From Bryum argenteum (taxonomy: Eukaryota > Streptophyta > Bryopsida > Bryales > Bryaceae): DNA of 64,000 nt. The translations under genes and the position numbers were made by a program. This document shows, piece by piece, positions 21,048-64,000 of this stretch; position 1 is the first letter of the stretch, and the number at the start of each line of letters is the position of its first letter. The notes beneath the pieces were generated by a model. That model had not been told where the DNA came from. It worked only from the letters and a program-made list of their open reading frames with translations, and did no database searches. The stretch covers positions 23,929,001-23,993,000 of the forward strand of contig CM073321.1 of the NCBI GenBank assembly GCA_037043015.1. Reading direction: 5' to 3'.

Positions 21048-21063
21048 CCGATATCTCATAGAA

Positions 21064-21944
21064 AGTATCGGAGGGCAGTCGATATGATGAAACCTCATGG
21101 TTATCATGTGGTATCAGAGGGCAGCCGATATGATGAAACCATGAGGTAAGAAACACACATGTAAGAAGCGAGATTAATTGAAAATGCGGCGGGTGCCCAA
21201 AAGCATATCGAACAGAGTGTGGCATAACAAAATTGATGAATGTAATCATACCAAATTAGTATAGAGAAAAAACGTACAAGTTTTAGAAATTCCATATGAC
21301 CAAAGATACTAGCATGCTAAGTGAGTGGTGTATCGGCTGGCAGCCGATAAGAATCCAATACACCGCCGGCTATGCCAACTACTGTGAGTTGTCATGGTAG
21401 CTAGTAACTGATCTAAAAGAATGTCTGTGTAGAGTATGTCGGCCGGCGGCCGATAACTGCTGCCACGCAGCAGTGATTAGTGATCCTTATCTGCATCTCC
21501 CTGTTGCGCGGTTTTAATCTCTGTCGTGCAGTAATGTCGCGGAAGCTCACGATTATTACATGGAAATGAGTATATGACGGCCAGCAGAAGAATACGGCTT
21601 AGATGCAGCTGCATGTCACAGTCTCCAGCGCCACGAAGCTGTCCAGCATCATAACAATATCGCTATAGTGAGACCGCAGAACAGGAACCATCCAGAGATG
21701 TACATTGAAAATTTGTCGGCCGGCAGCCGATACCGGGCGAAGGCACCTGAAAGGCCAGATCACCATTGGCTTGAAGCAGTGAATCATGACAAGCATCTCC
21801 ATGCAGCACTACGAAAATATGTCGGCCGGTAGCCGATACCGGGCGAAGGCATCTTCACGTCCAGATCACCATTGGCATGTCGAAGTACAAATCACCAGCA
21901 TCTTATGCAGCACTACGAAGATATGTCGGCTGACAGCCGATATA
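21064..21944. repeat. P-type palindromes, cluster 1 (7 copies)
   Basis: Seven copies of the interrupted palindrome TATCGGCCGGCAGCCGATA or close variants lie near 21064, 21110, 21331, 21436, 21712, 21819 and 21921. Spacing is irregular. They lie downstream of the element P DUF7869 gene, in the last non-coding kilobase of element P visible on this side. Confidence 0.85.
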
Positions 21945-21961
21945 ACCAGGTACAGTGCAGT

Positions 21962-22998
21962 TCAGTTCTCAGCATCATCTTCGCACACCATAACAGCACT
22001 TGCGGCTTCAAGGTTTGCAAGTGCAGCAGCGGCGGATGCATCAAGAATGACGTGAGTAGTAGGTGGCCTATTCCTGGCATGGGAGGGCATTCGATGTGAG
22101 AATAAAACGATGCTGACGTTGATAACTTGGGGGAGACAAGGCTCCCTGTGCCAACGGCGCGACCAGCACTCCCTAGCAACCAAGGACTTGGCCTCCTTCT
22201 TTGATCGCATTGGAGTCCACCATTCCACCTTAAAGTTCTTGTAGTTAACTCCCGGCGAAAGCTCGACACATTCTAGAACACGACCAAGCCACACATGAAG
22301 GTAATGGTTATCGCAAGGACGACAGAGAACAAAATCACCAAGGAGAACGTCCCTGAACAGATTAAACTTCATGAACGTCCCAGAACGGCCCTTTGCTCAA
22401 CCACAGTATGGGTAAGGGTCGGGATCATCCTTAGGTGTAACATCTTGCGAAGATGACAGAGGAAAACCAGATTGTGATTCCAGACGAGCATGATCACAGG
22501 ACCAGTCAGAAAGCGGCTAGAACCCCTCGACGAGGGACGCGGACGCAAGCGGAAGTGGTGAGTTGATCTCCGCGTTGATTCGCTCCTTGTACCCAACGGA
22601 TCCAGCCATCTCTTCACAGTATCTTCTATTTCAAGCCATGCCCATCTTCCAGAACTCGATGAACTTCGAAATACCGTTTCTAATGAAACCCTGCTTCTCC
22701 TTGCACTCTGAAGCGCAAGCTTGCTCCTTCTCTGAATTCAACTTTCGTGGATTAACGTCCGTAACCCTCCATAAAGGCTTGAATGGTACAGGACGTGGAT
22801 CACCAGAAGGAACCCGTGGTCTGCCGTGAGAGTCCTGAGTCCACATCTTGATAGGAGGACCCGGAGAGAGCCAAGACAAATCAGTAGATTGCTTCTTGTA
22901 CCTCATGACCGGCCAACCACGATCCGGTCCCTCCTCCTCAACAAAGAACTTGAAGAGATGCATATCACCGAGTCCAACAATCTTGTTAACACCATCGT
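21962..22998 (-). pseudogene. Element P DUF7869-family gene, 3' part
   Basis: Coding resumes at 22998 with DGVNKIVGLGDMHLFKFF, which continues the DUF7869 exon exactly (the decayed copy at 62.9 kb has the same order without interruption). It proceeds through VTDVNPRKLN and FIRNGISKFIEFWKMGMA, changes frame, and ends in a segment GDFVLCRPCDNHYLHVWLG (22340-22290) that parallels GYFVALRPCGTDGRPFWLG of the element Q protein. This C-terminal block has the look of a small BAH- or Tudor-like barrel, a guess from the pattern. The coding sequence ends near 21962. Confidence 0.65.
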
Positions 22999-23001
22999 GA
23001 T

Positions 23002-25433
23002 ATGTGAGCCTAAATCCCGGTGACCCGGTTTTTAAGCCACAAGTTTGGGTCGTGGGGGTGGAGTGCAACAACAATTAACCTTCCAAGCAATGTTTCTTTG
23101 AATATTCCCTACAACTTCAGCGCATCATTCAAATTTGTACCTAGCCCTAACTTAAGTTAAACTCCTTTCTTAGTTTGCATATGACCCCATCACACATGAA
23201 AAGTAATGAGTAATTAAACGTGCAATTCTTTGTTTGGTCGCAGATTAGGTTTGATTGGAACTTTTTGGGCAGCGCTTCCGCGCTCAACCCCAAATTTCTA
23301 AATTTTTACTTAAGTTTTGCCAATTCAGCCCTAAAAAGGGCAGCGCTTCCGCACTGCTCTTGCACAGTAAATACTAGTACACGAAGACCTCAAACAATGA
23401 TTCAAGCAAGACATATAGAAATATTCAAGCAAAGAAACAACCCCAATCACAAGTGCAAACAATGTTAAAATAGGTCAAAACTAACATTTTTTGGAGCAAT
23501 GGATGTTGCCATTTTTAAGATAAAGTTTACAAACTCTATGTATTCAATCCACAAAACTTAGCAAAGAAAACAATGCATAAAGAGCAAAATGAAGAAGGAT
23601 GAGCTCCCTCTATATTAGCACCCTGTCTACCCTCCGTAATGTCATGGAGGGGACAGGGCATTGGCGAGCCGCGCTCTCTTGACGGTGTCGTCGAGGCTGG
23701 GCTGCGGCGGTTGAGCTGCTGTCTCGCTCCTTCGATGCCGATGCTGGCCTTGGTCGTCGTTGTCGGTACCGCTGCCGGTGCGGTTCGGTGCTGGGCCGAA
23801 TCAGCTTCCCGATCACGTGGATGCCGTCTTATTGCCGGCTACCGATCCCGCCGTTGCTGTTGGCGGATCTGCCACCCTGCTGTACTCCGGCACTTTGCCG
23901 GCGATGATCGCCTCCCTGTTGTCGGCCGTCGGTGCGGCGAGTCGGCGTTGACTGCCGTTCCCCCTTGCTGTCGATCCTCCACCTCCTCGGTAGTTGCCGG
24001 TGCTGTCGATGATGGTGGTCGGCGGAATACTGCCGATCGGCCTTCCTCGTCCTGCTGGTACCGATCGGGTTGGCTCTTCCCGAACTGCCTTCTTCCGCCT
24101 GCTCGTCGTTGCTGAAATTCAAAGGCCGCTTTCTCGAGCGCCCGAACTGGTCGTTGCCAGCTTGATCTCGTCGCTGCTGTCGTTCGCCTTTGTCGTGTCG
24201 TCCTGCTGCTGGTGCGCCGATGCGGTCGTCTCGATGGAGATCAGCCGTTGCTGGTTGTTGAATGGGCTGTCGGCCCGATGTCGATGCCGACGCCGCTCAG
24301 GTGTTGTTGTCGGGACTTCCGCCGACCTCCGCCGGTGCTGATCGCTTCGGCTACAACGCCGCGCCTCCCCCACGCCGTTGCTGTCGATACTCTCAGCAGA
24401 TGCTGGCGACCGCTACAACAAGGCCAAACTCCAGATCATCTGCAGTTTCGTCCAGGGATAGAAGGCGTCAATCAAATTGCCATCCTTCTCCGAACTGTGG
24501 CGGTCGATGCCGCCTTGCTGCTGGATCTTTGTGCCGACGGCTGGCTTCGTCGTCGCCTTCTTCCACAATCTGCAGCCTCGATCTTGATCGGCTGCGCCGG
24601 CGTCGCTGCCGTGTCCGGTTCCGATCTTGCTCCTCGTGCTAGTGGTCTTGGCCCGGCGGTTGAACTGCCGGCAGTTCCTTCGCCTCGTCAATGTCGATGC
24701 TCCGCTTCTAGCCGTTGCCAGCCTTCGATCTGTTCGTTCCGGAGCTGCTTCTACAACCGCCACCCTCCTCGTCGGTGGCGAGGCTCTATCGTCTTCCTCG
24801 TTCCGTGCTCAGATCTAGACTCACGAAAAACAGTCACACGCCAAAAAATATCTCTCCCTCTTAATAACTCATGACAAAACCCAAAAGACTAACTATTCAA
24901 AAATCACACACACGCTTCTTTCCTTCAACAACATTACACAACACATGACCAAAAACTAATGCTAGATCTTTTCTTGTACACACACACTTCCCAAAACATG
25001 CACACTTCCTTCTCCCAAAAAAACTCTAACCCTAACTCTCCTTCCTCTCCCTAGTCGTGCACTTGGATGTGGTAGAATTTCATCCGGTTCAACCGGATGA
25101 AACTTTGTTCATCCAGCATTTCATCCGCAGGGTTTACTAATTCCCTAGTTTATTAACTAGGAGGAATCTTGAGCATTTATGAATAATGATAAAGTAATAA
25201 ACCATGACCAAAAACATGTCATAAAACTTTGACGCAAGTTAATATTACTAATTTAGAATAGAATAAACAACCACCGGGCCATTTAGGCAAGACCCCTCCA
25301 ATTATCATAGAAATTCCGGAAACCGAAGGAATTAGCCTAAATGTCCCAATTGGGGATTTCGAACATAAAAATATTGGTCTAATGCTTGTAGATAACATTT
25401 CGTACAAGCGTGAACCGTTTCGACGGTTCACAT
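23002..25433. mobile_element. Unclassified 2.43-kb insertion in the P DUF7869 gene
   Basis: The insertion is flanked by GAT at 22999-23001 and 25434-25436; one copy restores the reading of the DUF7869 gene seen in the 62.9-kb copy. The ends are ATGTGAGCC and GGTTCACAT, a 9-bp terminal inverted repeat with one mismatch; a 4-bp TGAT duplication is equally possible. The right end is a perfect hairpin, GTGAACCGT-TTCG-ACGGTTCAC (25410-25431). The middle (23600-24830) is GC-rich and open in several frames on both strands, with repetitive composition (R/Q/S-rich on the minus strand) and no recognised domain. Family unknown; no transposase seen. Confidence 0.6.
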
Positions 25434-26139
25434 GATGGTAGTCCTTGACATAGGATTTGAAATCTGCCACCTCCTGGACAAATTCAGGAATAAAAGCCTC
25501 GGTCTTCTGGGAGTCCTTAAAAGCCTTCATGAGATCTGCAACAACGTAGGTGATTTTCCTCTTGATAAGCTTGGACAAGTAGCTAAAATGAGCATCAATG
25601 TCCTCGTGGGTATGTCCAACTACTAGGAATCCAACAGTGACTTCCTTGAATATGCGCCTCGCAGTAAGCAAGGAACAGAAGGCCATAACGAATCCGTTCT
25701 TGTTGTCTTTGGCAGAGTTATCAAGCTGTAAGAAAAGCTTCCTAGGAAGAGGAACCGCAGGGCGACCAGAGAGCGGTGGGTCCATGGCGACCCTGGTGGA
25801 AGGCGGAATCGAAGAGAAACATCTCGATTTGCCATGGAGCAGCGCCTCGAAGAAGGTATTCTGCGGAGGTGTCGGAAAGAGCACCTTTGAGTCGCGAACA
25901 TGTGGTCGTTCAAGGGCGTAGAGGACCCGACAGAGCGAGGATATAGTAAAATTAGAATCACCAGGCCAGAGAGCAGTAGAATAGTGCGCATAGGCACCGT
26001 CACCGTGGCCGTGAGTTAGCATCCCCGTGACCGAAATGGGTATCTGACCAAGGCCTGCGGTAGCCTTCGTGATCCTCTGCATCCTCGGAATGGCGGTCTT
26101 CGTCGTGTCCATCTTGTCATGAATAATGCACAAAAACTC
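25434..26139 (-). pseudogene. Element P DUF7869-family gene, DUF7869 domain
   Basis: This exon segment opens with the continuation SEFLCIIHDKMDTTKTAI and is uninterrupted. It includes VTGMLTHGHGDGAYAHY, then LFLQLDNSAKDNKNGFVMAF and VVGHTHEDIDAHFSYLSK, the two signature blocks of DUF7869 (D-N...K-N and V-G-H-T-H-x-D-I-D). The spacing of acidic residues recalls an RNase H-like transposase core, but that is inference. The frame ends at KDYHH, where the 2.4-kb insertion begins. The local coding sequence is well preserved, so the element was probably not very old when interrupted. Confidence 0.8.
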
Positions 26140-26143
26140 AGAT

Positions 26144-26168
26144 AACCCCGTATTTGTTATATTTGGAA
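26144..26168 (+). repeat. Element Q left terminal inverted repeat
   Basis: Starts AACCCCGTATTTGTTATATT and continues TGGAA. It pairs with 43373-43397 with three mismatches. A shorter shared motif, CTCCCAAA, follows some 18 bp further in on each side. Confidence 0.85.
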
Positions 26169-26599
26169 CATTTTCATCTCCCAAATTAAAACAAGATAAC
26201 GGATGAAGCCAAAATCAACATTTAGAGGGGTTTCACTGTATGCATATGTACCTTGAATTTACTAATTTCCATTATATTTGGAGATGATATGAGACCTCTT
26301 GAATCTTAGAAAGTATGTTTATCTTAAAAAAAGTTTCCAACCATACATATATTTGATAAGATATATTTAAAGATAAACATACCAACAAAAGATAATTTTC
26401 TTTCAATTGATAATAATGACGGAGTCAACTTGTACAATCTTCTTATACAAAATAAATATATTGAATATGGATAGTAAATTGCACAAAAATAGAATACTCT
26501 ATATACTAAATATCAAAGCAATATATATGCCAATACTAAGTTTAAGTACTAAAACACCTACATCCATAATAAATACTATATACTAAAAGACTACTATTG

Positions 26600-29472
26600 A
26601 GAAGATGAAGCAAGCTCCTGCAAAGAAGCCTTGATGATTTCAACCTACTTCTTGGGTATCGTAATAATTGCGTCTATACCTTCACCGCTTTCCTCGTCAG
26701 AATGCGTAATTCTTGATTTCCAAGCAGTGAAAATAGCATCTGTAGGTTGCGATGATACATCTACACCTTTCTCAACAGTCCAACGAAGCTTTCTATTTGT
26801 ATCCCAATTTGTGTAATTCTTCAGAGTTTCATTGGAGCGTGACATTGGACGGAAGAACTGGATGTCGACCGTATTGGGTAGGTCTAGGTTTGAATTCGGA
26901 TCAGACATTGCTCGCCCGAGCCAGAAGGGCCGGCCATCGGTGCCGCATGGACGTAGTGCAACAAAATAACCCTTATAAAGGTCACGTCCAACTCGAAATG
27001 AAGGAGCAGGACGATCACGTTGCTGGCCAACGAAATGCTCATCGTCGTCGTACTCTTCGCGCACATTCCCTTCTAAAGTAAACTCATCTTTCATAGCATG
27101 TGCAAGTCGAGTTGCCGGCCAAAAACCATGTTGTAATGGTAATGGTTCCTCCAAACTTGACGGAATCCCATCATGCGACAATGCAAGTACATCCATGGGT
27201 ATACAAAGAGCATCTTTCACGCCGCTCCAATAATATGAGAGAGGCTCGTACAATCTCCGCGATTCCATTGACTCACGTGACAATCGTTCCCAATGATCAA
27301 CAAAGCCAGAAATCCCTTTCACCACCTCAGACAAATGACGCATCTCGTTTGGACGCATAGCATCCGGTTCACCACGTGGCCATAATGATCAACCTTCAGA
27401 ATCCTCCTTCCACAATTTAATACCAGCATTATCACCTCTAGGCAGCCATTCCTCGTCGTGACAAAAAATCTTGTACTTCATTACGGGGCATCCACTTGGA
27501 TCCATGTAAAACTTGAATTGATGCGCCTTCGTATGTCCCACCAATACTTCATCGCCGTCTAACATCCACTCTTCAATGAATTTCTTGAAGTTCGGAACCT
27601 CTTGAACGAGGTGTGGAATAACTGGAAGTTTCTCAATCCTCATAAAAGATTTCATGCGAAGAGGGATGGTAGGATAATCCTCCTTTCGCAACGCCATGCT
27701 CCAAAGCCCAAATAATGCATCTATGTCATCATGAGTGTGACCAACGAGCATAAAATTTACATAAATCTCTCGAAATACTCATTTGGCTACCAAAAGGGAC
27801 CAGAAACTGAAGACGAATCTATTCTTGTTATGACTCACAGCATTATCCATTTGGACATTCAAAATTGGAGGCAAAGGCTTTGCTCGAACTAAGATGTCAG
27901 GAATAGGGCCTAATGGATCCATACACACCTCTGAACCTCGTAAAAGAGCAGTATACAATGGATGCGATGGGGGCTCTGTAAAGAGTAGTCTAGATGAGGA
28001 CTTAGGTGCAGCTCCAGATCCCGCAGAAGTTTTGCAAATGAGCCGACCGTATAATTGGCATCATGTGAGTAAACATCTAGTCCATAATGAGCGTATCGCT
28101 TGTCAACATGACCATGAGCAAGAATTCCCGTAACTGCAAGAAGTAACTTCATGAGTCCGTCTAAGTTCTTCACCTTATGAGACAAGGCAGGTGATGTTGT
28201 TTTAGAGTGGTCCATCTTGTCATGCATAATGGTCAAAACATCTTGAGGCGACTCCTTAGACCTAAAGCGGTTGAGGTAGTACAAGTCTCGGTGCGCATAC
28301 GCGGAATCTAAGTGCACATTCAACTTCCTCGACCATATAAGCGATGACTGTGTACCGGGAAGAGTGAGCTTCATCAATGATTGTAACTCATCACACTTGG
28401 AGCAACGCGCGAAATTGTCCCCCGATCTTTTGGCATAGTATTCAGGATAGCTCAGGCGGCGAATCTTACTAAGGTTTGAAGTTGACACCGGCGGAAGCCC
28501 ACACTCTTCAAGGTGATGATCAAGAAGAGGAATTTGGTCCTTCCACTTAAAACTTGAAGGAAGTACCTTGGCAACAACCTTCTCTCCTCATGGAAGGCTC
28601 CGGGACTTGTGAGGCATGTGATCGGCATGTCTATCAAGTATTGCCCCTAAGACGGCAGAAGCAACAATCGTATGCCTCCTAGGCTTCCGCAAGCCCGTGT
28701 TCCTGTATAACTGGGCCTCATGCCCATCAGCTGCACTTTGGGCCTTGCGATAAAACGTACCGTTGCTCACGCCCATGATTTTCATCCACGCAATTGAACA
28801 AACATCGTTATCCTCTAGAGTGACTACATTTTGCCTTTCAGCATTTCTATGGAACTGCCTATGGACATCGAGTTTGACGTGATTCTTGAACTACACAGTT
28901 GTCTTGTCGTACATGCGACATCTGAGAACCTTAATCTTCTCCCTTGGGTATAGTTGTACACAATTGTGCCTACAGCAGGTATTACATGCGACCGCATTGA
29001 TTGATTCCGCTGTCATCAGGAACTGTGCTTTGCGCGAAACTGGAGTAGACTCATCCCTTGAAGAATTATCATACGATCGAGTTCGAGATGACCCCTGCCG
29101 CCGACTATGTTCCCGGACCCATCTGTTGTAAACATCTTGCTGACTATGGTCAAAAAGACTAACACCGTCTAAGAGAACTTGCTGGATGAGCCAGGACTTG
29201 AAGGAATATATCCAGTCGTCTGGATCCTCGACCGCAACAAACAAAGTTGAAACTTGCACCACAACTAGGGAATCACCGAGTAGGCCATTACAATCAGGTA
29301 CAGCGCCAGATCGTAGATTTCTAAGTAAACCCTCAGCGATTCTGAGTCCTTCGGAATCAAGCATTGCAACAGTCCTCCCTGTCCAGAGTCGCGGAGGAAC
29401 AACTTGAGCAGCAAGTAAACCAGGATTCATAGGTGCATCGACGAAAGCGTCATCGTCTGAACAAACATCCAT
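26600..29472 (-). pseudogene. Element Q DUF7869-family gene
   Basis: The ATG at 29470-29472 (MDVCSDDDAFVD) directly follows a splice-acceptor-like ATTACAG, so an upstream exon may exist. Segments in order: a cysteine/histidine cluster ACNTCCRHNCVQLYP (about 28960); AWMKIMGVSNGTFYRKAQ (about 28770); CSKCDELQSL (about 28390); VTGILAHGHVDKRYAHY; the DUF7869 blocks MDNAVSHNKNRF (about 27845) and LVGHTHDDIDALF (about 27740); and a C-terminal GYFVALRPCGTDGRPFWLG domain (about 26970). In-frame stops at 28891 and 28588, plus at least one frame change near 27910 and another near 27370, make it a pseudogene. Its role is unknown; as the only gene with an RNase H-like pattern, it is the best transposase candidate. 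Confidence 0.75.
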
Positions 29473-29552
29473 CCTGTAATATATACACAAGGTTAAAACC
29501 TATTCGAACAAAAACATGGACAACTTCAGGATAGTATGAGAAAAATTTATAT

Positions 29553-30859
29553 TCAATTCAGCTCGAGCCAAGCTAAACTGACTAAGAGAAAACAGTCTAC
29601 AGTTTAGCTCGAGTCGAGCTAAACAGCATCAAGTAATATATCAATCAGTTTAGCTCGACTCGAGCTAAACTGTCTCACGGACAGTGCCTTGTAGGAGTGG
29701 TAGTACTAAACCGCACTTTGGATCAGCTGTACACCAGCTGAACTGATTCTACAGATACATACTACAGTTTAGCTCGACTCGAGCTAAACTGTCAATACGA
29801 ACGCATATAGCAGTTTAGCTCGAATCGAGCTAAATTGTAGCTGGCACCAACCTCCACAGTTTAGCTCAAGTTGAGCTAAACTGCTGCAATTCTTAAAACT
29901 AAGTCTAATTACAAAGCAGTTCATGGTTTAGGGTATAAGGTATGACTTACCAAAATGTAGTTATACTAAAATTAACAAAAGACCACTAATAAAACAATAA
30001 AGCAAACAAAAATCCGTCAACAGTTTAGCTCGACTCGAGCTAAACTGTAAAGTAACGTGCCAACTACAGTTTAGCTCGAGTCGAGCTAAACTGTAGTTGG
30101 CCTGTACTCTACAGTTTAGCTCGAGTCGAGCTAAACTGCTGCAATTGTTCACACGAAGTCTAGTTTACGACGCAGTCCATGGTTTAGGGTATAAGGTCTG
30201 ACATACCAAAATGTACTTACTCAAATTAACAAAAGACCACTAATAAAACAATAAGGCCTACATAGATTCAGTCAGCTATAGTTTAGCTCGAGTCAAGCTA
30301 AACTGTACAGGCATTTGTCCACTACAGTTTAGCTCGACTCGAGCTAAACTGTAGCTAGCACGGCCCTTGACAGTTTAGCTCGAGTCGAGCTAAACTATGG
30401 CTAGGACGAGTCTTGACAGTTTAGCTCGAGTCGAGCTAAACTGCTGCCCATATTAAAATGAAACCTTCTTTTTTGACGCAGTTCACGGTTAAGGACGAAG
30501 AAATAAGCTTACCAAAATCACATTACACTCTAATCGACACGAAACTTGCCTAAACAAGCAACAAAGACTACATAGACCGTCTACAGTTTAGCTCGACTTG
30601 AGCTAAACCGTAGTCGACACATGTGTCTACAGTTTAGCTTGACTCGAGCTATACTGTAGATGTTACGTTAGTTGACAAACAAGTTATCAACAAATACTTA
30701 GTTACGACGCAGATACAGGTTGAAGGTTAAAGCTTTGTTAAAATGACTTAAAATACAAAGTATAGATACTGTGGTAGCTTAAACCGTGCAGTTCAGCTCA
30801 GTCGATTTAATTTGCTCAAACCGCGAAAGCTGCAGTTTAGCTCGACTCGAGCTAAACTG
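29553..30859. repeat. Q-type palindrome array (about 16 copies)
   Basis: Copies of a 27-bp palindrome with arms CAGTTTAGCTCGA and TCGAGCTAAACTG around a single central C or G lie near 29553, 29600, 29645, 29764, 29811, 29857, 30021, 30067, 30112, 30279, 30324, 30370, 30417, 30584, 30631 and 30833. Many are perfect. They sit in larger units of about 255-305 bp (compare 29880-30005 with 30135-30258 and 30440-30575), so the array grew by segmental duplication. It fills the space between the divergent DUF7869 and ParB-like genes, where a shared promoter would be expected. Confidence 0.95.
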
Positions 30860-31084
30860 CAAGTAGTACTAGGAAGGATAATCTAAGCTTCATGGATATC
30901 CAAACCATCAACTAACACACTCCCCCTTCACAGTCAGGAGAAGACAAGAGTTTAAGAGACGCTTCAACACTTCTTCAAACTTAGGCCATCGGATATTGAC
31001 GAGGACGATGGCGACGACACGAAGCAGCTGGACTGCTGGGAATTCAAGGATCCATCCAAAGTTGGATCTTGGTCTGCGAGATGT

Positions 31085-31368
31085 TGTAAGAGTCTAGCTG
31101 TCAAAACAAGCAAAAACTACAAAAGAAATATATTGATCCAAGACTTAGGTTTACAATGAATAAGAGTCCCTTATATACTAATCACTTGGCTCAACTGCCG
31201 AGGCTATACTTTAGCTGTACTGCCGAGACTATACTTTAGCTCTACTGCCGAGGCTATACTTTAGCTCTACTGCCGAGGCTATACTTTAGCTCTACTGCCG
31301 AAGTTCTATTTATAAAATTAATAGCGAGTGAACATCCGAGCTTATCAACGAGGCCTTGGCCCATGACA
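31085..31368 (-). mobile_element. Chromovirus 3' LTR (284 bp)
   Basis: On the plus strand it begins TGTAAGAGTCTAGC and ends CCCATGACA. It contains about four to five copies of a tandem unit, GGCTATACTTTAGCTCTACT followed by GCCGA. The matching LTR lies at 36430-36737. Confidence 0.9.
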
Positions 31369-31414
31369 AATGCCTCCTCCTCCTCCTCCTCTGTCTTTGA
31401 TGAATTAACAAGTG

Positions 31415-32970: not shown

Positions 32971-32977
32971 GGGGTCA

Positions 32978-33706: not shown

Positions 33707-33831
33707 TTTTGTTGGCGGCTCTCATTGACGAATTGCCTCAAGTTTCTTTGGATCACCGCAAACCCCAACCGGTCTTCACCAAATATCCAAGATACTTAAT
33801 AGTATCCGCTTCAAACTCGCTCTTATCAAAA

Positions 33832-34300: not shown

Positions 34301-34665
34301 AATCCATTATCCAACAACTCCGTAAGGGTCTTGCGCAAAACTAATAATTGATCCTTGGACATCGATCTGGCCGGCATGGCGGGGATGTCATCATTAGTCT
34401 TCCTTCAATAAGATTGATCTCGTGATCAACCCCTTTCCTATTGGGGCAACGACTTTGCATTTTGTCGATTAAAAGCGTCAATAATCGGCATGAGCGGTCG
34501 GGAGCATGTTGTGCCGGGTCCCTATACACCTTCTGTTGTAGTGCCTTCCGGATGTCAACCAAGTCGACACTAAAACCCCTACGGTTGTAACCTCTCGCAA
34601 AGTTTGAATCATCGATACACGTATCTCTTGCATTGGCTCCAACGTAATCGGTCGAGTCTTCACAA

Positions 34666-40869: not shown

Positions 40870-40963
40870 TGCCCTTTTTCCTATCTGCTTCTTGTTGGCT
40901 CCCATATTATATTTCCTCCATCGTATTGTTCCCTGATTTCATGAATTTGTATTGCGCTGCCAG

Positions 40964-53861: not shown

Positions 53862-54130
53862 TGTATCGGCCGGCAGCTGATACAGCTTCCACGACTGGGT
53901 TTGGGGATCGAGAACACTGTATCGGCCGGCAGCCAATACAGCTTCCACGACTGGTGAGGGGGAACGCGAATACTGTATCGGTCGGCAGCTGATACAATAG
54001 ATCAAGAAATTTATAACGGCTGGACAGAAAAATATATCGGCTAGTCAGACAGAAAGGCCTAGGGTTCTGGTGATTAAGACCTAAATTATATCGGCTGATG
54101 AGAAGACGATATCGGCCGGCGTTGTTGTCT
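53862..54130. repeat. P-type palindromes right of the pogo element
   Basis: Copies near 53862, 53918 and 53976, and partial copies near 54033 and 54107. Together with 45902-46176 they form one array that the pogo insertion split. Confidence 0.85.
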
Positions 54131-54239
54131 GCAGATCTGAAAGCTACAGCTTGGGGATCCAAAATTAATCTGTAAAATTAACGCTCATAAACTGTGCATA
54201 CGCTCGAATATTCGACGCAAAAACAATGTAGAAATATCT

Positions 54240-54780
54240 AAAACAGAGAAATTAGCATGTTTAGGAGGGCGAGGCAACAGGACAGCATGAGGAGGAGAGC
54301 GAGGGGATAGGACAGCATGAGGAGGAGCGAGGGGACAGGACAGCATGAGGAGAGCGAGAGAGGGAGAGAGAAATGTGAAAAATGGGAGTGAATGGGTACC
54401 CTAGGCCTACTCCACTCAGGAAATGGCGCCCAAATCAAGAAAATTTCAAAAATCAAGAAAATTTCAAAAATCAAGAAATCAAAAAATTTGAATGGAGAGC
54501 GGGGGAGGAGCAAGCATTGATTCGTGACGTTTTGGCAACGGGCGGCCGAATCTTTTTGCGGGCAGCAGGCGGGCAGCAGGCGGGCAGGCGTAGGCAGACG
54601 GGTAGGGTCGCGGGCAGGCGCGCCTCCTCATGGAAAGCGACGCGACGGGTCATTTCAAGAGGGGGGGGGGAATACCTCCTTCCCCCCCCATATCTCCCTT
54701 ATTTGCATTCTCCCTCTCCACTCCTCTCTCCCTCCTTCGCGCACCTCTCCGCTCCCCTCTTTTCCGCGTTCTTGTTTTGT
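54240..54780. other. Non-coding purine/pyrimidine-rich stretch, putative promoter and leader
   Basis: GAGG-rich repeats (54260-54370), AAATTTCAAAAATCAAG repeats (54435-54480) and a CTC/TCT-rich tract (54660-54790) precede the ParB-like gene. No convincing gene; the open frames are compositional. It is the likely 5' region of the ParB-like gene. Confidence 0.4.
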
Positions 54781-54999
54781 CTCTTCTATTTTTGTCTCTT
54801 CTGTTTTTGGTATCCGACGGCGGCCGACACGGAGCTTGGCAGCCAGCCGACGCAGAGTGCAGCAGCAGTCGATACATGGAGTGTAGCACCCGATACACGG
54901 AGTGGAGTAGCCGATACGCGGTGTGCGCGAAACCCTAATCGGCTGATATCCGCGTCAGAGCAGCCGATACAACTCGTCAGCAATGGCAGAACCCGCAAG

Positions 55000-55762
55000 G
55001 TAAGCCTTCTGCTCTTCTCAGTTATTTGTATCGGCCGCCAGCCGATAGAAGTGTTTTATCGGCTGGTAGCCGATACAATCCTTTCTATCGGCTGCCGTCC
55101 GATATGTGTGTTCTGTATTTAGGCAGCATTTTTTGCTATATGTATCGCTCCCTCTCATTTATGTGTATCGGCCGCCAGCCAATACATCTGTGTTATCGGC
55201 TGGCAGCCGATACATGCCATTGTATTGGCCTGATTCATGCTAGATGCACTGATGTCGTACTTTATGTAGATTGTTATGCTTGATGTATTTTTCTTTATGT
55301 ATATTGTAATGACTTATCGGCCGGCGGCCGATATGGATAAGCATAACGGCCCGCAGCCGATATGCATAAGCATATCGGCCGGTAGCCGATACAAGCCTTT
55401 ATATCGGCTGCCGTCCGATATTTGTGCTCAATATTTAGGCGGCATTTTCATTTACATGTATTGCTGCCTCTTATTTATGTGTATCGGCCGCCAGCCAATA
55501 TATGTGTATTATCGGCTGGCAGCCGATACATGCCATTGTATCGGCCTTATACATGCTAGATGTATTGATATTGAATTTTCAGTATATTGTAATGACTTAT
55601 TGGCCGGCAGCTGATATGTATAAGCATATCGGCCGGCAGCCGATATGTGTAATCCGATTCTGCATGTTTGCTTTCCTGCTTGTGTTCTAGACTGCTTGTT
55701 AGCTGTACTGGTATGTATCGGCCGGCGGCCGACATGCTCTTACTTGCGCCTCGGTGATTCAG
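55000..55762. repeat. P-type palindrome array in first ParB-like gene intron (about 15 copies)
   Basis: Copies lie near 55027, 55056, 55086, 55165, 55193, 55314, 55343, 55371, 55399, 55480, 55510, 55595, 55625 and 55714, plus a partial at 55538; another precedes the gene near 54812. Two tandem units of about 310 bp (55027-55340 and 55343-55640) share both palindromes and spacer, so the array grew by duplication, as in Q. Neighbouring palindromes alternate between the two orientations of the asymmetric centre (CCGGCAG and CTGCCGG type). Confidence 0.92.
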
Positions 55763-56639
55763 GAAGCCGGGACTGCTGAAGAAGATGCTCGGGGACAGCC
55801 TCAGCGTCACTGACGTTTCAGTAGACGGAATTGTTCCGCATGCTGCGTGGCTGGCGTTTCCGATTATTGATGCTTGGGGCCTCCACTGGAAGGATTTGCC
55901 GTCGGGGAGGGTTGAGATCGTCTGCTCCGTGCTGATAAAGGGAAACATCATGCCGAGACACGGGTCCGTCTTGGCGGTTGAGAAGGTTGTTGGCAATCTG
56001 GAGAATGTGGACCTCCTCATCAGCCTTAGGCCCCCCGGCCAACCGGAAGGGGAGGAAGATTTTATCGCCATATCCTTGCCGTGGAATAAGTGCACGGAGG
56101 AAATCTGCGGAGCGACCTCTGTGAAGTACGGGATGTTTTTTGCTGGGTCATCTCCGGTGCATGTGGAGGAGTTTATGGATTCCTGGGAGATGGTCAGGGG
56201 GGCGCAGCAGGAGGCGAATAAGTAACTCGATGCAGCTGCGGTGGCCGCGGAGAAACAGAAGAAGAAGGTCCCTTCCGCTCGAAAGAGGAAGGAGTCGGGT
56301 GCCGCTGACAACGCGGTTGTCAGCGTAGGGGATCTTTTCGTCGTGGCTGGGGAGACCAGTCGCTCGAAGAAGAAGTCAGCATCCAAGGTTTTGGAGCTCA
56401 ATCTGGACGAGGCGCTTGAGAGAGGAAATCGCATGTCTACAAAGACAAGTGATGCCGAGATCGACGCCATCTACAAGGCGTTGGAGAAGGGCTTGAGCGC
56501 TTCATTCCCTTACAAGAAAAGGCGGATTGCAGGGGTAATTCCGTCGGAGAAGCTGCACATCGCACCGGACGAACTAAAGTACCGGAGGATCACGAAGGAA
56601 CCTCTAGGTCAGGTACAATTTGTTTTCTTTTTGCTTTCC

Positions 56640-58870
56640 TTATTTCTGTATCGGCCGCCAGCCGATACATTGTGCTCTTCTTTCATTATCTGTGATATTT
56701 TACTACTCCCTATCTGCACTTTAGTATCAGCTGCCGGCCGATACAGATTTCTGCTACTGTTCTGATGTCTTGCTTGTCTGTATCAGGTGAAGGCCATATA
56801 CAAAGGCTACGGTGCTATCCGGAAGAAGCCTGAGATTCACGGGATCCCTCTAAAGCGGAAACCCCTCGCAACGGATTCTGGTATGGATGCGGTCATGGAC
56901 TACATGCCCGCGGAGAACAACACGTACACCATGCCCGTCGGGAAGATAGTTCCATGGTGGGAGAACCCATCTACTCAGTGGTACATCATTGGGGGGCAGC
57001 ACACCGTCACAGCTTGCTGGGAGCTCGCGGACATATTTCCAAAGGGTTCGGATGCTCATAGGGAACTTTTGGAGTTTGAAGTCATCCCTGTCTGCACCAA
57101 GGATCCGCGGCAGCTAGTTCGTGTCTCCAACGCGCTCAACCTTAACATTGTGGAGAAGGTTGCAAGGGAGACGTTTCGTTCTTGCGCTGAGCTCGGGCGT
57201 GGGGCATGGATCCGAGCTGGTCGTCCGCTACCCCACCATAGAGGTGGAAAGAGCTCCAAGGAGTACGAGGTATGTCTTCTTCTCGGTATCGGCCGGCGGC
57301 CGATACCTTACTATTTTCTTCTTTCCTTGTCTTAATTGCTGTATTGTTTTGTATCGGCCGCCGGCCGATACAGTAAATGTTCATCTGTTACTGTTCTAAC
57401 ATTCCTTATTCGCTGCAGCTTGCCAAGACACAAGTGATGGCGCACTTCGTGTCCGAGAAGTCAACCAGTAAGCTGCCTCTCGTCTTCGCGGGTGACAACG
57501 CGTGGAATAGCTGGATCGAAGTTTTCAACGCTTGGGAGGCCGTAGAGCTGATCGCTGATGACGGCACTGAGCCTAATGTCGTTCCCCGCCTGCCACTGAC
57601 GGAGATCACAAAGTCAGATCTCGTTCCGACGCTTGGGGTACGGGACTCCGACCTCATCAGCCTCGCGAAGGAGATTATCGCGAAGAAAGTCTGCATCAAG
57701 TCAAACAGCAAGACAAAGGACATGCTTACGCTGCAGGACTGGTGCCGCGACAAGAAGCTCGACCGAGTTATTATGAATGAGCTCATGTGGAAGTTGAAGG
57801 GCCACCCACTACCCTGCAAGGACGCAAACTGGGTCCCTTACACGGATGAAATGTGGGACGAGTTAGCCCGCGAGAAGAACCTGACGCTGGATCTCGTCAG
57901 TAATATATGGACGGACCTGAAGAAGGTCACGGCAGGGAACGAGTGGCTAAATGGTCGTATGAATCCGATGAATCCCACCACCGATAAGTCGAAGAACGGA
58001 ATTGCGCCTGCGATCTTCTCCGAGATTTTGGAGACTTACACCACCGTTCACGTTGCGGGAGGGGGGGCGTCAACCAGGGACTCCCTCATTTACGTCTGCA
58101 AGAGTGCTGACGCCGTAAACGACGTCCTTGCTATGGTCAAGGACGCCACCCGCCATGCCGTTATCACTAAGGACCCCAAGGTATTTGTTCTTTTTTGCTA
58201 CACGCCTTGTGGGAGCCCGTTGTTGTCAGCCGGACCGAGCTGTTTGCTATCGTGAAGGCCGCAACCGTCGACACTGAGAGCGACGCGTTCGATCTGTTCG
58301 GGGATGAAGAAGAGGATGTCACCTCGATTAAGCCGAACATTCCGGTGCCTATGTTCTTTATCGGCACCTCGAAACAGCGGGATCTACTCGCTTCCATCTG
58401 GCGCTGTGCTACGGTGACGTGGGCTACGCATTCCGTTGACTACAAGCCCTCTGCGCGTGCTGGCTTCAAGAGGTTTGAGCTCGACGCTTCTCCGCTCGTC
58501 ACGTTGTCGATCACCTATCCGAAGATTGGGTCAGACGACAGCATCTTGAGGGTCTTCAAGAAATTCACTGGTATTCAGAAGCCGATCGACTGGTTCCAAG
58601 AGTGCCCGGAAGGAGTTCTCGACTGGAATGGTGGTTGCTGCGGAGTTGATCACGTTACGCTGGAGAAGTTCTTGAAACCAGTTCTCCGCTCGAAGCAGGC
58701 GACCCTCATCAATATATGGTGTAGTGGGAACATCACCGAGATTGCATTGGTAAGTTTCTCGCCTATTTTGTTTGGATTTCTGTATGTATCGGCTGCCGGC
58801 CGATACATTTCGGACTGTTGGTTTTTTCTTCCTGTTGGAGTGTCTGTAGTTATCGGCTGCCGATACATTT
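56640..58870. repeat. P-type palindromes in later ParB-like gene introns
   Basis: Pairs lie in each intron: 56648 and 56722; 57287 and 57351; 58786 and 58850 (the last shortened to TATCGGCTGCCGATA). Each pair is spaced about 65-75 bp. The adjoining exons of this stretch have none. Confidence 0.9.
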
Positions 58871-59195
58871 CTAACTTTCGGTTTTTTGTGAAACGTAGAG
58901 GAATGGCAGTCCAGTTTTGGAGTTCGTTCGGTCTGTGGAGGACGTTAGGATGGCGGAGGATCGTGTTAGGGGAATGAATCTGGACCGGGTCGTTTTCCCT
59001 ATTTCCTCTTCTGAAGGTAGCCCTGATGCTGGTAACCACCCAACCATGCAAAGAAGAGTCATATCGGCTGGAGGCCGACAGGATGATGGGGACGTTCTTA
59101 TGGATGAGGCGGCTGATTTGGACTCCGCACCTCAAGCGACTGCTGCGTCCGGATTTGATGTATCGGCCACCGGCCGACAGGACGATGAGGCCTGA

Positions 59196-59729
59196 TCTCG
59201 ATCACCGATGCAGCCGGCTGGATGTCCTATCACGCCGGGGAAGAACCTCAGCGCCTCTACCGCGAGTTCCGGCTCCCGTGGTGACTCTGTCCATGTCGAC
59301 CATTCGGTTGCCCGGGAAACCGATGCTTCGGCGGAACGGGACCTGGCTCCGCGTGATGCGGGAGGAGCATCGATGGAAGTGGACTTGCGGGATGAGCCTG
59401 TTGACGAGGTTATCACTGTCCACGTGAACTTGCAGTCCAGGAGCACTCGATCTTCCGGCCTTCACAAAGGGAAGCGTGCGGTCTCGCGGTCCTCAGCCGG
59501 CCGTTTAGCTGTCGGCTGCCAGCCGACATCTTCGGCACATGCAGCAGGAAGTGGTGGCCGCTCGCAAGCCCGCAAGCGCATTGTCGATTCAAACCCCAAT
59601 CCTGAGTTCTTCCCGCCCAATGCGGCTGCGCTGGACTCGCCGAACGAGGAGTTGTCTCCTATTCGATGTGCACAGGCTTCTCTAAAGCGGACCCGGCAAA
59701 CTGGAGGTTTGTTCCAGACGTCGGTGTAG
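59196..59729 (+). CDS. Low-complexity tail of element P ParB-like gene (or separate exon)
   Basis: An open frame in a different phase directly follows the stop at 59195. It is S/R/D-rich, with basic patches (KGKRAVSRSSAGR, RSQARKRIVDSNPN) that look like nuclear-targeting signals. The Q gene ends in a comparable acidic/basic tail, so this is probably the same C terminus after a frame change near 59190. P-palindrome-derived sequence lies inside the coding region at 59058, 59158 and 59508. Confidence 0.4.
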   Translation, partial: SRSPMQPAGCPITPGKNLSASTASSGSRGDSVHVDHSVARETDASAERDLAPRDAGGASMEVDLRDEPVDEVITVHVNLQSRSTRSSGLHKGKRAVSRSSAGRLAVGCQPTSSAHAAGSGGRSQARKRIVDSNPNPEFFPPNAAALDSPNEELSPIRCAQASLKRTRQTGGLFQTSV

Positions 59730-59812
59730 ATTTAGCTATTTATCCATATCTTCAGTACATTAGAATTAGCCGCAGTCTCCCGAGCAATGCGCTTTGTCTG
59801 AGAAGTTCAGAT

Positions 59813-59955
59813 TGTATCAGCCGCCAGCCGACACCTATAGTTCGTCGGTTGTCTACCGATACAGTTACTGAAATTCTCATTTTGCGTACTGCTTGGTGTA
59901 CATATATCTGGTTTTCCTTTCTGTTCATATAATGTATCGGCCGCCGGCCGACATG
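59813..59955. repeat. P-type palindromes upstream of the HAD gene
   Basis: Copies at about 59813, 59835 (diverged, TCGGTTGTCTACCGATA) and 59933 lie in the non-coding gap between the ParB-like tail and the HAD exon. Confidence 0.85.
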
Positions 59956-60014
59956 TCTTTGTCCACCTAGTTTTACTCTCTACGTTCTGATGTTGTTATT
60001 TGAATTTCTTATTA

Positions 60015-60594
60015 TCGCATTGCGGAGCACTATGGATCTGCGGGGACCTCTCCGCAGCGGTCTGCTCCCCTCGCGTCTGTTTCATCTGTACCTCCCATAC
60101 CTAAGGTACCTTGGAAATACTTTCTTCTTTTCGACATCAATGGGACCATTATGCACTTTCGTCCTCAGAAGATCATTCAGCAGAACGTTCTAATGGCCGA
60201 GGCTCGGATTGGGCCGGGTCTCAAGGAGCTTCTTGCTTGGTGTTTGGATAACAACTTTGAGGTGGTCTTTTGGTCCTCCGTTCAGGAGAAAAACCTGAAA
60301 TCTCGTCTCGAGTATATCCGGGACAGGGTTCCTACTTTCCCGGATCCCACTTTTGCTTATGGGCAATCCAAGTGCTTGATAAGTGCTTTCCAGGACCCTC
60401 AGAGGCCAGGTGTTCCTGTCTTTCTCAAGTGCATAAGGCACCTTCTTTCGTGTTGCCCTGAGTTAGTTGCGCGTGGAGCCATTGAGGAGAATATGCTTCT
60501 CATTAATGACTCCCCGTACAAAAACGTCCTCAATAATCCTTACAGCGCTTTTCACCCTGAAACGTTGGCAGTGACGATTGCGGCTCTAAGATAA
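60015..60594 (+). pseudogene. Element P FCP1/NIF-like HAD protein, truncated
   Basis: An open frame from about 60015 reads through KYFLLFDINGTIMHF (HAD motif I, again D-x-N-G), LKELLAWCLDNNFEVVFWSS (motif II region) and MLLINDSPYKNVL (motifs III/IV). The family's C-terminal cap-side segment and the basic last exon present in Q (to 43111) are missing; the frame stops at 60594 and unrelated DUF7869-type sequence begins by 60760. So the gene is cut off on its right. The start codon is not visible in this exon. Phosphatase activity is doubtful because the second catalytic aspartate is N in both copies. Confidence 0.7.
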
Positions 60595-60711
60595 ACACGC
60601 AAGTCCGGGTTGATGTTGCTTTACTGTAAGTGAATGTTACTACTGACATTCTTCGAGCTACTCTACATGACCACAACATTTCTTTGCGCCCCTCTTGAGA
60701 TATTTGTGGCG

Positions 60712-60739
60712 GTAATGACAAAATCAATTACCGCCCTTT
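60712..60739. other. Hairpin at the junction between HAD and DUF7869 sequence
   Basis: GGCGGTAAT and ATTACCGCC form a perfect 9-bp stem around a 10-nt loop, in the 160-bp unassigned junction between the truncated HAD gene and the next DUF7869 copy. Confidence 0.6.
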
Positions 60740-60759
60740 CATTTCTTGTAATAGTGCGG

Positions 60760-63311
60760 ATGCGCGCCTAGATCCTCATCTTCCTATTCTAGATCCGCCC
60801 CTAGAGAGGAATAAGTACTGCGAGCTATTGAATGAGGATTTCTCCTTGTTCGGGAAGGCAGTCATTCAAGTTTGTCTTCCAGATAAAGTTTGCGATGAGA
60901 ACCTTCTCAGCAATACATATGTTGGAGTAAAGTTTGTTTCTATGCACAAATCGTTGCAGTCGACGACAATGAAGTGGCCACTTTCACTAAGTCGACTTGA
61001 AGATGGTGAACTCCTCTCTCATATTGTGATATCTGCTCTGGAGCCGCTCTGAACACCAGTTTTGACTATTCCGAGCTGCAAGTTGTCCCTCAAATCTCTA
61101 TAAGTCTTTTCAAAGGAGAATCTTATCCTAAGATCAACGTACTGAATCCAAGCTCAAAATTAAGACCTTGGATGATGGGAATCGGAAGGTTGCTTTCCAA
61201 AGTTGCTACAAGAGTAGGTGTTGTCGAACATTTCCATGAGAATCTACGCAAATCCTTCGTTGCAAGTTCTACGCTTAGTTCTTTGAGATGAAAAGAAAGA
61301 CCGCGTATGCTGTGGAAATTCAAATTTGTATTCTTGCCGGAGGCGATAGGAAATGTATTACCTTTGAAAGTGTTGAGGTCTACATAAACGCGTGGTATAT
61401 CATTCATGGTGTCTCCAACTTTGCTTAACACGTTAACAAGGCTGCAACTATGGGTGGATTTGGTAGCGGTTCGCATGGTAATTCAGGAGCGCTTTGCCCT
61501 TGGCAGCATACCATTCAAGCCAGATAAACGCTGCAAAAGATTATTAACGAAGATGCCGACCAGATGCCGAACGAGTTCAGGCTTGTAGGAAATAAGCGAG
61601 CCGACGACCTGAAGGTTGTTCCATCTGCTAGCAGTTGGGACCACATGCACGAGCAAGTAAATCAAGTAAGTTGTTATCTCTCTCCTTTGTTATAACCTAT
61701 GTGTTGGCCGCTAGCCGATTCACTTATAATACGATCAGAAGTTGTTATCTGTATGCAAGTTTACTGTCCTAGTGGCTTCCAGCAGTCTTCTTGAGTATGG
61801 CATATTGTCCCCTCATGTGTCAATTGTCCGGCTACCAAGTACCGACCAATATGTTTATTTCATTATTGTCATAGACTCTTTATTCTTGTTGGTCGTCAAC
61901 GGATAGAATACGTCCATTAGGATGTTGACCTCCTCCTTTTTATTCACCTTTCACGTTAATCTTAAGTGCTTCCATAAGCCTGTCTCCCAGTCGACCATCT
62001 GTCAGCTTCGGAAGAACCATTTAAAAAATGTGGAGGTTAAAGCTGTTGGAAGGAGCTTCTCAAAGTGCATTGAGTGCAGTTTCCTTATAGAGTGCATCTC
62101 CAAATACCAAAGGGGATGTGATGAGTGACAGACATTCGTCAATGACTAGAACCGCCATCTTAATTACCAACGTGTCTGCCGCCATATTTATAGTGGTTGG
62201 AGTTCTCAGTCCTATCAGAATCTGTTAGAGTTTTTTTGCATAATCTTTGACAAGATAGATACAAAGAAAACTGCCATTCTGAGAATCCAAAGGATTACAA
62301 AGACCACTGCTGACCGCGGACAAATTCCCATTACTGTTACTGGCATGTTGACTCATGGCCACAGTAATGGTGCTTACGCGCACTACTCTAGTGCACTCTA
62401 GCCGGGAGATTCCAATTTCTCAATCTCTTCCTTCTATTGTGTATTGCGAGCGCTGGAGAAGCCACTAATATGTGAATCTCGAGAGCTATTTTCTACACCT
62501 CCACATATCAGCTTCTTCTAGGCTTTGCTACAAGGCAAGTCTAGGTGTTTTGCTTCTATCCCTCCTGCTACCAGAACACAATTCAATCCTCCACATCAGG
62601 TCATCCACTCGTCCGTCTTCCTCAAAAAAATTTCTTACAGTTTGATAATTTAGCCAAGCACAACAAGAACAGATTTGTGATGGCTTTTTTTAACTTTGCA
62701 ATCGCTCGCCCATATTCATTGAAGTCAATGTTGATTGCTTGATTGTTGGTTACATCCGAGAGGATATTGATGCTTATTTAAGTTACCTTTCCAAACTTAT
62801 GAAGAGATAGAATAGTTACGTTGTAGCCAATCTCATGAAGGCTTTTATGGACTCCCAGAAGACTGTTGCGTTTATTACTGAATTCCTTCAAGGGGTGGCA
62901 AATTTTAAATCTTATCTCAAAGACTTCCACCATGACGGTGTCAACAAGATTGTTGGACTCGCGGATATGCATCTTTTCAAATTTTTGGTCAAGGAGGATG
63001 GTGTCGATCATGGTTGGCTTGCCATGAGGTACAAGAAGAAATTGACTATTTCATCATTGCTTCCATCTGGTCCCCTAGTGAAAATCTGGATTCTAACAAC
63101 CTTAGAAGACTTCGAATTTGAGTTGGAGACCCTTCTCTTGTTCCTTTTGAGCCATTATGGGACGTTACGGAGGTTAACCCCAAGAAGTTGAACTTTGTGA
63201 AGGAGCACAACCATGCCTTAGAATGCAATTACGAATAGGGTTTCATCAAAAATGGAATCTCCAAATTCATTGAGTTCTAGAAGACCAATATGGCGCGCAA
63301 TAGACGATACT
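60760..63311 (+). pseudogene. Third DUF7869-family gene copy, heavily decayed
   Basis: Segments match the element P gene in order: CELLNEDFSLFGKAVIQVC (60815-60880), YHSWCLQ/HGVS-type sequence near 61400, DENADQMPNEF-type near 61550, HLKNVEVKAVGRSFSKCIEC (about 62020), VTGMLTHGHSNGAYAHY (about 62335), a degraded DN block near 62640, GYIREDIDAYLSYLSK (about 62755, where the P copy has G-H-T-H-E-D-I-D), and FKSYLKDFHHDGVNKIVGL (about 62905), ending near FIKNGISKFIEF (63240). More than ten stops or frame changes are present. The left part of the gene (before 60760) is missing. One probable P palindrome remnant lies near 61702. The right end is cut at 63312. Confidence 0.75.
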
Positions 63312-64000
63312 AACCTCGTATTCGTTATATTGGGAAATATGCAGGATTTTGGGAGATTGAAAGGGATTTATGAGGCCTAAAAGCTGTACAATTGGCGCGT
63401 AAATTGTACAATTTAAATGACTTGATAACCAAAATATGATAGGGAGATGCTATAAACGTGAGTTTCGCACATGTATTGAATGCGAGGTGTTGTTGGAAAG
63501 TGCAAATCGACACAAAAGCCATAGTATAAGAGGGGAGTTTGAGAATATTATTGAAATCTCCGAACTTTATATATGATAAATTACTCAAAGAGTAATTAAT
63601 ACATAGTTTATTCATTGTATTCAAAAGTAATTCAGCTATCACTACCTAAGGCGTTCCACCATATGCGATGATACGAGACTTTATGAACGCACGTTGACGC
63701 TGACGTGTCCATCCGTAATCATTATCTTGCATCATAGGGCTATCCAGCAGTCGTTGCAACCGTCGTCTTCGATTATCCTCGATGCTTGATTTAGGAAGTG
63801 AGTGGCGGCGCGTTTCGGAAAGGCTCCTAGTCGCTTCTAACTTTGAAAAGATGGCCGAACCTGTTGGCTATTGGAAGGAGATTAACAAGGAGATAAATTC
63901 TTCATTATTACAGCTCTTGCATCTCTAGTTGAAGAATTTTGCCTCTATCCGACTAGTCTCTTGATCATGCTCGTGCTACCGCGGATGATGGATCTAAGTA
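63312..64000 (-). mobile_element. Element Q2: third giant element, terminal part only
   Basis: The sequence from 63312 starts AACCTCGTATTCGTTATATT and stays closely similar to the right end of element Q for about 55 bp. The preceding TACT (63308-63311) would be its 4-bp target duplication; the partner lies outside the window. It is in the opposite orientation to Q. A HAD last exon on the minus strand (63646-63880) confirms identity. Between 63400 and 63640 the sequence is AT-rich and non-coding. Confidence 0.8.
63646..63880 (-). CDS. Element Q2 HAD gene, last exon (partial)
   Basis: On the minus strand an open frame reads HSLPKSSIEDNRRRRLQRLL and ends RAFIKSRIIAYGGTP with a stop at 63646-63648. 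It matches the last exon of the element Q HAD gene (43111) residue by residue at most positions, which supports that exon as real coding. The upstream exon border is not clear. Confidence 0.7.

Follow-up and report, generated by a model that had tools for sequence, protein, structure and literature searches.

VANDAL transposons are MULEs, and the Sola superfamily, together with Sola1, reportedly goes back to Bao et al. in 2009. Sola elements are described as having a DDD transposase and 4-bp target site duplications (TSDs), as exceeding 15 kb in some cases and as occurring in the moss Physcomitrella (PMC10741241), and descriptions of the Sola superfamily and Sola1 give the terminal inverted repeats (TIRs) as variable (PMC10741241, PMC9033089). 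The 21.5-kb Sola1-1_Ec32 of Ectocarpus carries a ParB and DNA-methyltransferase gene opposite its transposase gene, and the available part of that account treats the ParB-methyltransferase genes of algal giant transposons as puzzling accessory genes and describes no binding site for them (PMC12477816). The VANDAL/VANC anti-silencing system of Arabidopsis (PMC10398659, PMC5735166) includes VANC proteins, which bind tandem motifs peculiar to a transposon family in its noncoding DNA and relieve silencing (PMC10398659). Here, a stretch of 64,000 nucleotides from the moss Bryum argenteum (C1:23929001-23993000, where C1 is contig CM073321.1 of assembly GCA_037043015.1; hereafter the window) was analysed and the genome of 258.8 Mb in 25 contigs was searched. 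The window holds three giant jumping DNA elements, P, Q and a third beginning at 63312, and P is nested in Q. P and Q carry DUF7869 (-), ParB-like (+) and NIF/HAD (+) genes in a common order. Assigned by their features, the three elements are most likely giant Sola-type (Sola1-like) transposons rather than a new superfamily, and the matched arrays of candidate binding sites seem to be the new part of the system.

P is a giant DNA transposon with both ends present, spanning 26144-43397 (17,254 bp). An alignment of 26050-26400 to 43250-43420 in reverse complement located the ends and gave the termini AACCCCGTATTTG at 26144 and CGAATATGGGGTT at 43397 (AACCCC...GGGGTT), lying in inverted repeats at 26144-26178 (+; AACCCCGTATTTGTTATATTTGG) and 43363-43397 (-) and flanked by the target duplication AGAT at 26140-26143 and 43398-43401. 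When the flanks are joined with one AGAT, the frame of the Q DUF7869 gene stays open across the junction (...STQSVQNPSEFLCIIHDKMD...) and through the HDKMD motif, indicating that P is nested in Q with this gene as its host site. A first-pass annotation, made from the sequence of the window by itself, had drawn P from 21050 to 43400; the stretch beginning at 21050 belongs to Q.

The best 40 left-end and 41 right-end matches of the P type gave twelve correctly oriented pairs, judged by eye, and ten P-type copies, including that of the window, were studied; in the other two pairs the ends are separated by 58 and 38 kb. All ten are bounded by TIRs of the type AACCCC(G/A)TATT(C/T)GTTA, with some variation. 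Exact 4-bp duplications, read by eye, flank P (AGAT) and copies E3 (TTTT), E4 (GTTA), E5 (AAAG), E7 (AAAA), E8 (AGCT) and E10 (TGGT), the duplication of E2 is TTAG with one extra T, and E6 and E9 are without one. The third element of the window is of a related type, T; its end lies at 63312-64000, with a tail gene at 63653-63815 (-), and the element runs past the window. The start of a related element at this position agrees with the first-pass annotation, and its first 527 bases have at least 39 matches besides the window, whole or partial, at 90-100% identity. A complete T-type copy on contig C8, T1, is 19.67 kb long, with TIRs AACCTCGTATTCG and ATTT on either side. The duplication is thus exact in eight of eleven copies, slipped by one base in one and absent from two. 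In tblastn searches all ten P-type copies showed DUF7869, HAD, the tail and, of the ParB gene, the second and third exons; the ParB exon was found in nine, E3 being without it, and T1 has every one of these parts. The early proposal of a self-contained mobile system is therefore upheld for the P and T types, in which genes and palindromes lie within ends marked by TIRs and 4-bp TSDs; that matching ends, duplications and the full gene set occur together is true of most of the eleven copies examined, the missing ParB exon of E3 and the three inexact or absent duplications being the departures.

Within P, the DUF7869 gene (26648-29471, -) is decayed by stops and a frame shift. Its pieces match profile A2 at 7e-106 to 6e-34 and its segment 27913-28587 matches PF25273 at 1e-4, and its product is the likely transposase. 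An altered genetic code was considered and rejected, because the stop and frame-shift places read as sense codons in other copies; the gene is broken in T1 and in each of the six P-type copies for which a translation was made (P, E2, E4, E6, E7 and E8). The ParB gene (+) begins with one or more exons encoding a PH-like N domain (36701-37121), followed by the ParB-fold exon (37129-38061, with INGQHSVAAS), a second large exon that is frame-shifted (38322-39763; profile A1 pieces at 2.4e-46 to 9.9e-18) and a third that appears acidic and coiled by eye (39922-40719). Downstream lie a NIF/FCP1-type HAD gene with the motif DLNG (41297-42064, +; PF03031 at 7.2e-15, above cut-off) and the C-terminal exons of the tail (42344-43108, +). 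The ParB exon has homologs, and the predicted model of one of them, P0116, which is 60% identical to the exon of the window, matches the N-terminal fold of ParB/Noc/KorB, bearing out the ParB label given at first pass.

Each family is seeded with its own palindrome. The unit of P- and T-type elements is a 27-bp odd palindrome (CAGTTTAGCTCGANTCGAGCTAAACTG), just beyond which conservation drops sharply (255 sites), and the Q unit is TGTATCGGCYGSCRGCCGATACA. In the window the P-type palindrome occurs 23 times, always within 29555-40843, and the Q-type palindrome 38 times (none in one shuffle of the window), always outside P, at 21329-21922 and 43718-61700, the palindromes assigned to Q itself being those at 21329-21944 and 43718-59955. 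The two types are never mixed within the window, in agreement with the first-pass annotation. In P, sixteen sites mostly 45-46 bp apart lie upstream of the DUF7869 start (29555-30858), three in the intron 3' of the ParB exon (38083-38220), three in the intron after the second large exon (39755-39843) and one upstream of the HAD gene (40843-40867). Across P- and T-type elements the sites occupy the regions upstream of the DUF7869 and ParB genes, the introns of the ParB gene and the stretch in front of HAD, at spacings that fall most often in the class of 40-49 bp (116) and next in that of 50-59 bp (47). When sites matching at 20 or more of 24 letters were counted in eleven elements, all 309 lay in 145,739 other bases and none in 63,371 coding bases, those to which tblastn aligned the P proteins being taken as coding; shuffles gave none.

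Dense, family-specific arrays of an inverted motif would also suit a transposase that binds them for end synapsis, in the manner of the TnpA motifs of CACTA elements, which are transposase binding sites. Such a role is distinctly unlikely. On the left the palindromes are not subterminal, the outermost being some 3.3-3.8 kb away from the end, with the DUF7869 gene in between; on the right the distance is about 2.5-3.7 kb in the ten P-type copies (0.7 kb in T1). The sites sit in promoters and introns, and a DUF7869 gene of another lineage has no palindrome array in the roughly 3.1 kb upstream.

In eight aligned copies of the array beside DUF7869, identity is 84% in palindromes, 66% in spacers and 91% in coding DNA. 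C-to-T or G-to-A changes were found at 75/1236 positions of the two core CpGs and at 15/1236 other C/G positions, a rise in CpG transitions as expected if the copies are CG-methylated. In public homologs the reading frame continues into the adjoining palindrome, one mismatch being allowed, in 22/72 ParB-exon, 7/36 second-exon and 1/78 DUF7869 proteins, compared with 1, 0 and 0 in one shuffle each, indicating that the palindrome is kept at the same exons in other genomes. The read-through of the ParB-exon homologs P0143, P0145, P0150, P0160, P0170 and P0172 terminates in QLESS or QLDSS, endings of the kind that a palindrome with the same GCTCGANTCGAGC core and different flanks would give.

The genome-wide counts are of best-scoring matches and are lower bounds, and those on C1 are biased towards the C1 query. 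The search with the ParB-exon protein used the best 127 of 905 candidates, and that for HAD gave 149 matches from the best 148 of 974 candidates, of which 148 places were used after the second piece of one gene was dropped. A HAD match lies 2-20 kb downstream on the same strand for 110 of the 127 listed ParB matches (median 4159 bp; 100 at 3-6 kb), as opposed to 2, 6 and 1 with shifted positions and 3 with the opposite strand. Exact P-type 23-mers, with the centre base free, occur 2885 times across the genome (reversed control, 0), and of the first 100 listed, all from the initial 1.8 Mb of C1, 91 have a listed ParB, HAD or right end no more than 20 kb away. The strict Q 19-mer was found 41 times; inward of the strongest 19 of 113 Q left-end matches, the rest being mostly telomere repeats or fragments, lie 33/41 within 25 kb and 37/41 within 40 kb (controls, 0), and 12 of the 19 ends have a strict Q palindrome within 40 kb. 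From this linkage we infer that the palindromes are candidate sites at which the ParB-fold protein binds.

A transcription factor unrelated to the ParB-fold protein, whether encoded by the element or by the host, might instead use the palindromes as promoter and intron enhancer sites. Their position beside the genes of the element accords with this, as does their odd symmetry over 23-27 bp, which a dimeric factor would fit. The linkage of palindrome and ParB gene in two divergent families, and the action of bacterial ParB on palindromic sites, both render it unlikely.

Q begins at 20483 (AACGGATATTTAAC), precisely where the homology of copies L048 and L049 begins; its right end was looked for and was not found. 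The left part of Q (20483-26139) comprises this end, a telomere-like (ACCCTAA)n array (20835-21049) and the 3' half of the DUF7869 gene (21965-26139, -), in pieces at 21965-22396, 22634-23074 and 25222-26139 (PF25273 at 6.3e-41 for 25222-26214). In L048 and L049 position 23001 joins 25433 directly with a 4-base overlap, indicating that the 2.4-kb stretch 23002-25432 is a later insertion in the gene; its ends lie near TGTGA...TCACA. The 5' half, severed by P, lies at 43402-45693 (-; profile A2 at 4.3e-32 and 5.4e-11), and it is followed by a ParB-like exon (56766-57332, +; GGQHTVTA) and a NIF/HAD gene with the motif DING (60004-60591, +; PF03031 at 2.8e-4 and 21.0 bits, just under the cut-off of 21.8). 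The same three genes, order and orientation that the first-pass annotation saw in P and Q are therefore present, the ParB-like exon of Q being matched only at E 0.0076 among 1036 open reading frames (ORFs) with profile A3. The terminal repeats and target duplication that it ascribed to Q were rejected: 43403-43670 and 43920-44191 resemble 62222-61955 and 61658-61387 at 73-74% as two copies of one gene, DUF7869, on opposite strands, and a degenerate DUF7869 gene of another Q-type element occupies 60699-63311 (+, the strand opposite to that of Q). Q-family copies on C1, C2, C3, C5, C7, C9 and C10 match into or across the telomere-like array, and both a chromosome end at this array and a start of P there were rejected, because the array is internal in other Q copies and belongs to them.

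Although the first-pass annotation regarded the elements as an undescribed class, their features fit published Sola elements (PMC10741241), and a ParB-methyltransferase gene is described in Sola1-1_Ec32 (PMC12477816). The elements are taken as Sola-type because 4-bp TSDs, conserved aspartates, a length above 15 kb and a moss host agree with what is published of Sola, as do variable TIRs; aspartates D417/D420, D542 and D584 are invariant in 22/22 DUF7869 proteins. The Sola descriptions, as far as their available text goes, make no mention of palindrome arrays. With Sola1-1_Ec32 the moss elements share a giant size and a ParB-like gene on the strand opposite the transposase, and they differ in having in addition a NIF/HAD gene and palindrome arrays, the string "palindrom" being absent from the main text of PMC12477816. 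Among the best-ranked papers of a literature search, which did not extend to Repbase or to many papers under subscription, none dealt with palindrome arrays accompanying genes of this kind, and no paper on DUF7869 was found. The named homologs of the DUF7869 and second ParB-gene exons of the window belong to two mosses, Ceratodon purpureus and Physcomitrium patens, and one ParB-exon homolog carries the label uncultured Leptolyngbya, a cyanobacterial label that we take for moss contamination.

In 2020 Maumus, McDaniel and Carey proposed Lanisha as a superfamily of DNA transposons (cited in PMC12730594); its transposases are described as having C(2)C and H(3-4)H in the interval from the second D to the last E (PMC12730594). 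On the presumption that D584 is the last catalytic residue, neither motif occurs between D542 and D584 in any of 22 DUF7869 proteins, and up to residue 700 C(2)C is again found in 0/22 and H(3-4)H in 10/22. The best homologs here include Ceratodon V-chromosome genes, and two Lanisha authors reportedly work on the moss Ceratodon, which was counted in favour of Lanisha; with the CMC-type C(2)C absent from DUF7869, membership is nonetheless highly improbable and the candidate was rejected.

In Sola1-1_Ec32 the ParB-like domain belongs to a protein of 1104 amino acids with a predicted N4/N6 methyltransferase, whereas the second domain of the moss gene is degenerate or unproven (PMC12477816 for the former). 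The second large exon shows a weak match to an S-adenosylmethionine motif, in the motif-I region of PRMT7 (E 0.7), and is possibly a degenerate methyltransferase-like domain. On a model put forward for the Ectocarpus Sola1 element, a ParB and DNA-methyltransferase protein binds the transposon that encodes it and methylates that DNA; such a model would accord with this match and with the strand arrangement shared with Sola1-1_Ec32 (PMC12477816). We consider it very unlikely here: domain searches gave no methyltransferase family match, the PDB gave none at E 10 for P0034, and no catalytic methyltransferase motif was recognised by eye, which makes enzyme activity doubtful. In the HAD proteins the motifs DLNG of P and DING of Q depart from DxDx(T/V), the catalytic motif of NIF/FCP1 HAD phosphatases.

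The ParB-fold protein would most likely have a role in anti-silencing comparable to that of VANC, which is the best functional parallel of the ParB-fold/palindrome system. Both systems combine family-specific short tandem motifs in noncoding DNA with an accessory protein besides the transposase, and in both the motif differs between families, the motif here being a long palindrome. VANC is not, to our knowledge, known to have a ParB fold. In the reading we favour, which we hold tentatively and at nearly even probability, these are giant cut-and-paste Sola-like transposons of a moss in which DUF7869 would be the DDD transposase; the ParB-fold protein would load on the palindromes, as bacterial ParB does on parS, act in cis along the whole element and keep its genes active against host CG methylation, as VANC does for VANDAL. 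Possession of a palindrome of its own by each family would confine the effect to its own copies, and possible targets of the HAD protein at the palindromes are the transcription machinery or chromatin. A fuller version, a eukaryotic parS-ParB system in which a ParB-fold clamp co-evolves with its own palindrome, loads at promoter and intron arrays, spreads and shields the element from CG silencing, is possible and rather doubtful.

Several observations weigh against these proposals. Unlike bacterial ParB-parS, Noc and KorB, the moss gene is eukaryotic, contains introns and lies within a transposon; the ParB-fold exon lacks the GERR motif, which we take to be the CTP motif of ParB, and has GQHS instead, the corresponding place in profile A3 reading NGQHSV. 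Domain searches identified no helix-turn-helix in the ParB-gene proteins (PAX at E 0.2 in 1/35), and the lack of a methyltransferase family match for the second exon counts here as well. The predicted model of DUF7869 is poor (pLDDT 59) and has no RNase H match, and Sola membership was judged from features compared by description. Seven of the 19 Q left ends are without a strict Q palindrome within 40 kb, and palindrome conservation could stem from gene conversion among repeats. The first-pass view that palindromes and genes travel together stands for the ParB-HAD linkage (110/127) and for sites near ParB, HAD and Q ends, and does not extend to DUF7869 as a whole. The DUF7869 search gave 1812 first-look candidates, the best 150 of which were scored, yielding 151 matches, with 150 used; a listed P-type HAD lies within 30 kb in 0/85 of those starting at profile position 24 or below, in 1/26 starting at 27-50, not in the arrangement of P, and in 10/39 starting at 53-54, six in the arrangement of P. 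Thus 85 of the 150 listed matches, those with the earliest starts, are without a listed P-type HAD, and the roughly 3.1 kb upstream of a strong DUF7869 gene, C9:10803869, is free of a palindrome array, with four weak inverted repeats as against four in a shuffle and no array in a repeat search. These results suggest that DUF7869 is a larger family, wider than the ParB/HAD/palindrome set, which is one branch of it, or else that other branches have accessory genes which have diverged beyond recognition.

Nine of the 150 listed DUF7869 matches are stop-free and lie in open frames of 1017-1125 amino acids on C1, C2, C4, C5, C8 and C9, suggesting that other branches of the family have been active recently. 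P-type matches cluster on C1, which makes up 17% of the genome, with 36/40 left ends and 41/41 right ends among those listed, and among the matches listed for the genes 115/148 HAD and 100/127 ParB lie there, with the bias from the C1 query; T-type ends are found on eight contigs, and open HAD copies at 90-93% on several. C1 may be a sex chromosome.

Other insertions and repeats occur in the window. A Gypsy-like long terminal repeat (LTR) retrotransposon nested in P (31085-36741, -; LTRs at 31085-31372 and 36430-36741, 90% identical) has a reverse transcriptase-like ORF at 32981-33721, judged by eye rather than by domain search, and is not part of the system. A pogo/Tc5-like transposase nested in Q (48036-51414, +) matches DDE_1 at 3.3e-20 and HTH_Tnp_Tc5 at 2.4e-4, just below cut-off, and has abundant A/E/R repeats in its C-terminal half. 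To the left of Q, an inverted repeat with 831-bp arms of 98.6% identity (17719-18549 and 18767-19597) adjoins a 152-bp tandem array (19372-19893).

Candidate binding sites thus come from two divergent families, differ in sequence and lie outside coding DNA, the P-type sites alone numbering 2885 exact copies; sequence-specific binding and anti-silencing can therefore be put to direct test in plants that are amenable to experiment. If the proposed role is true, a bacterial partition fold would have been reused as the private chromatin controller of a transposon.

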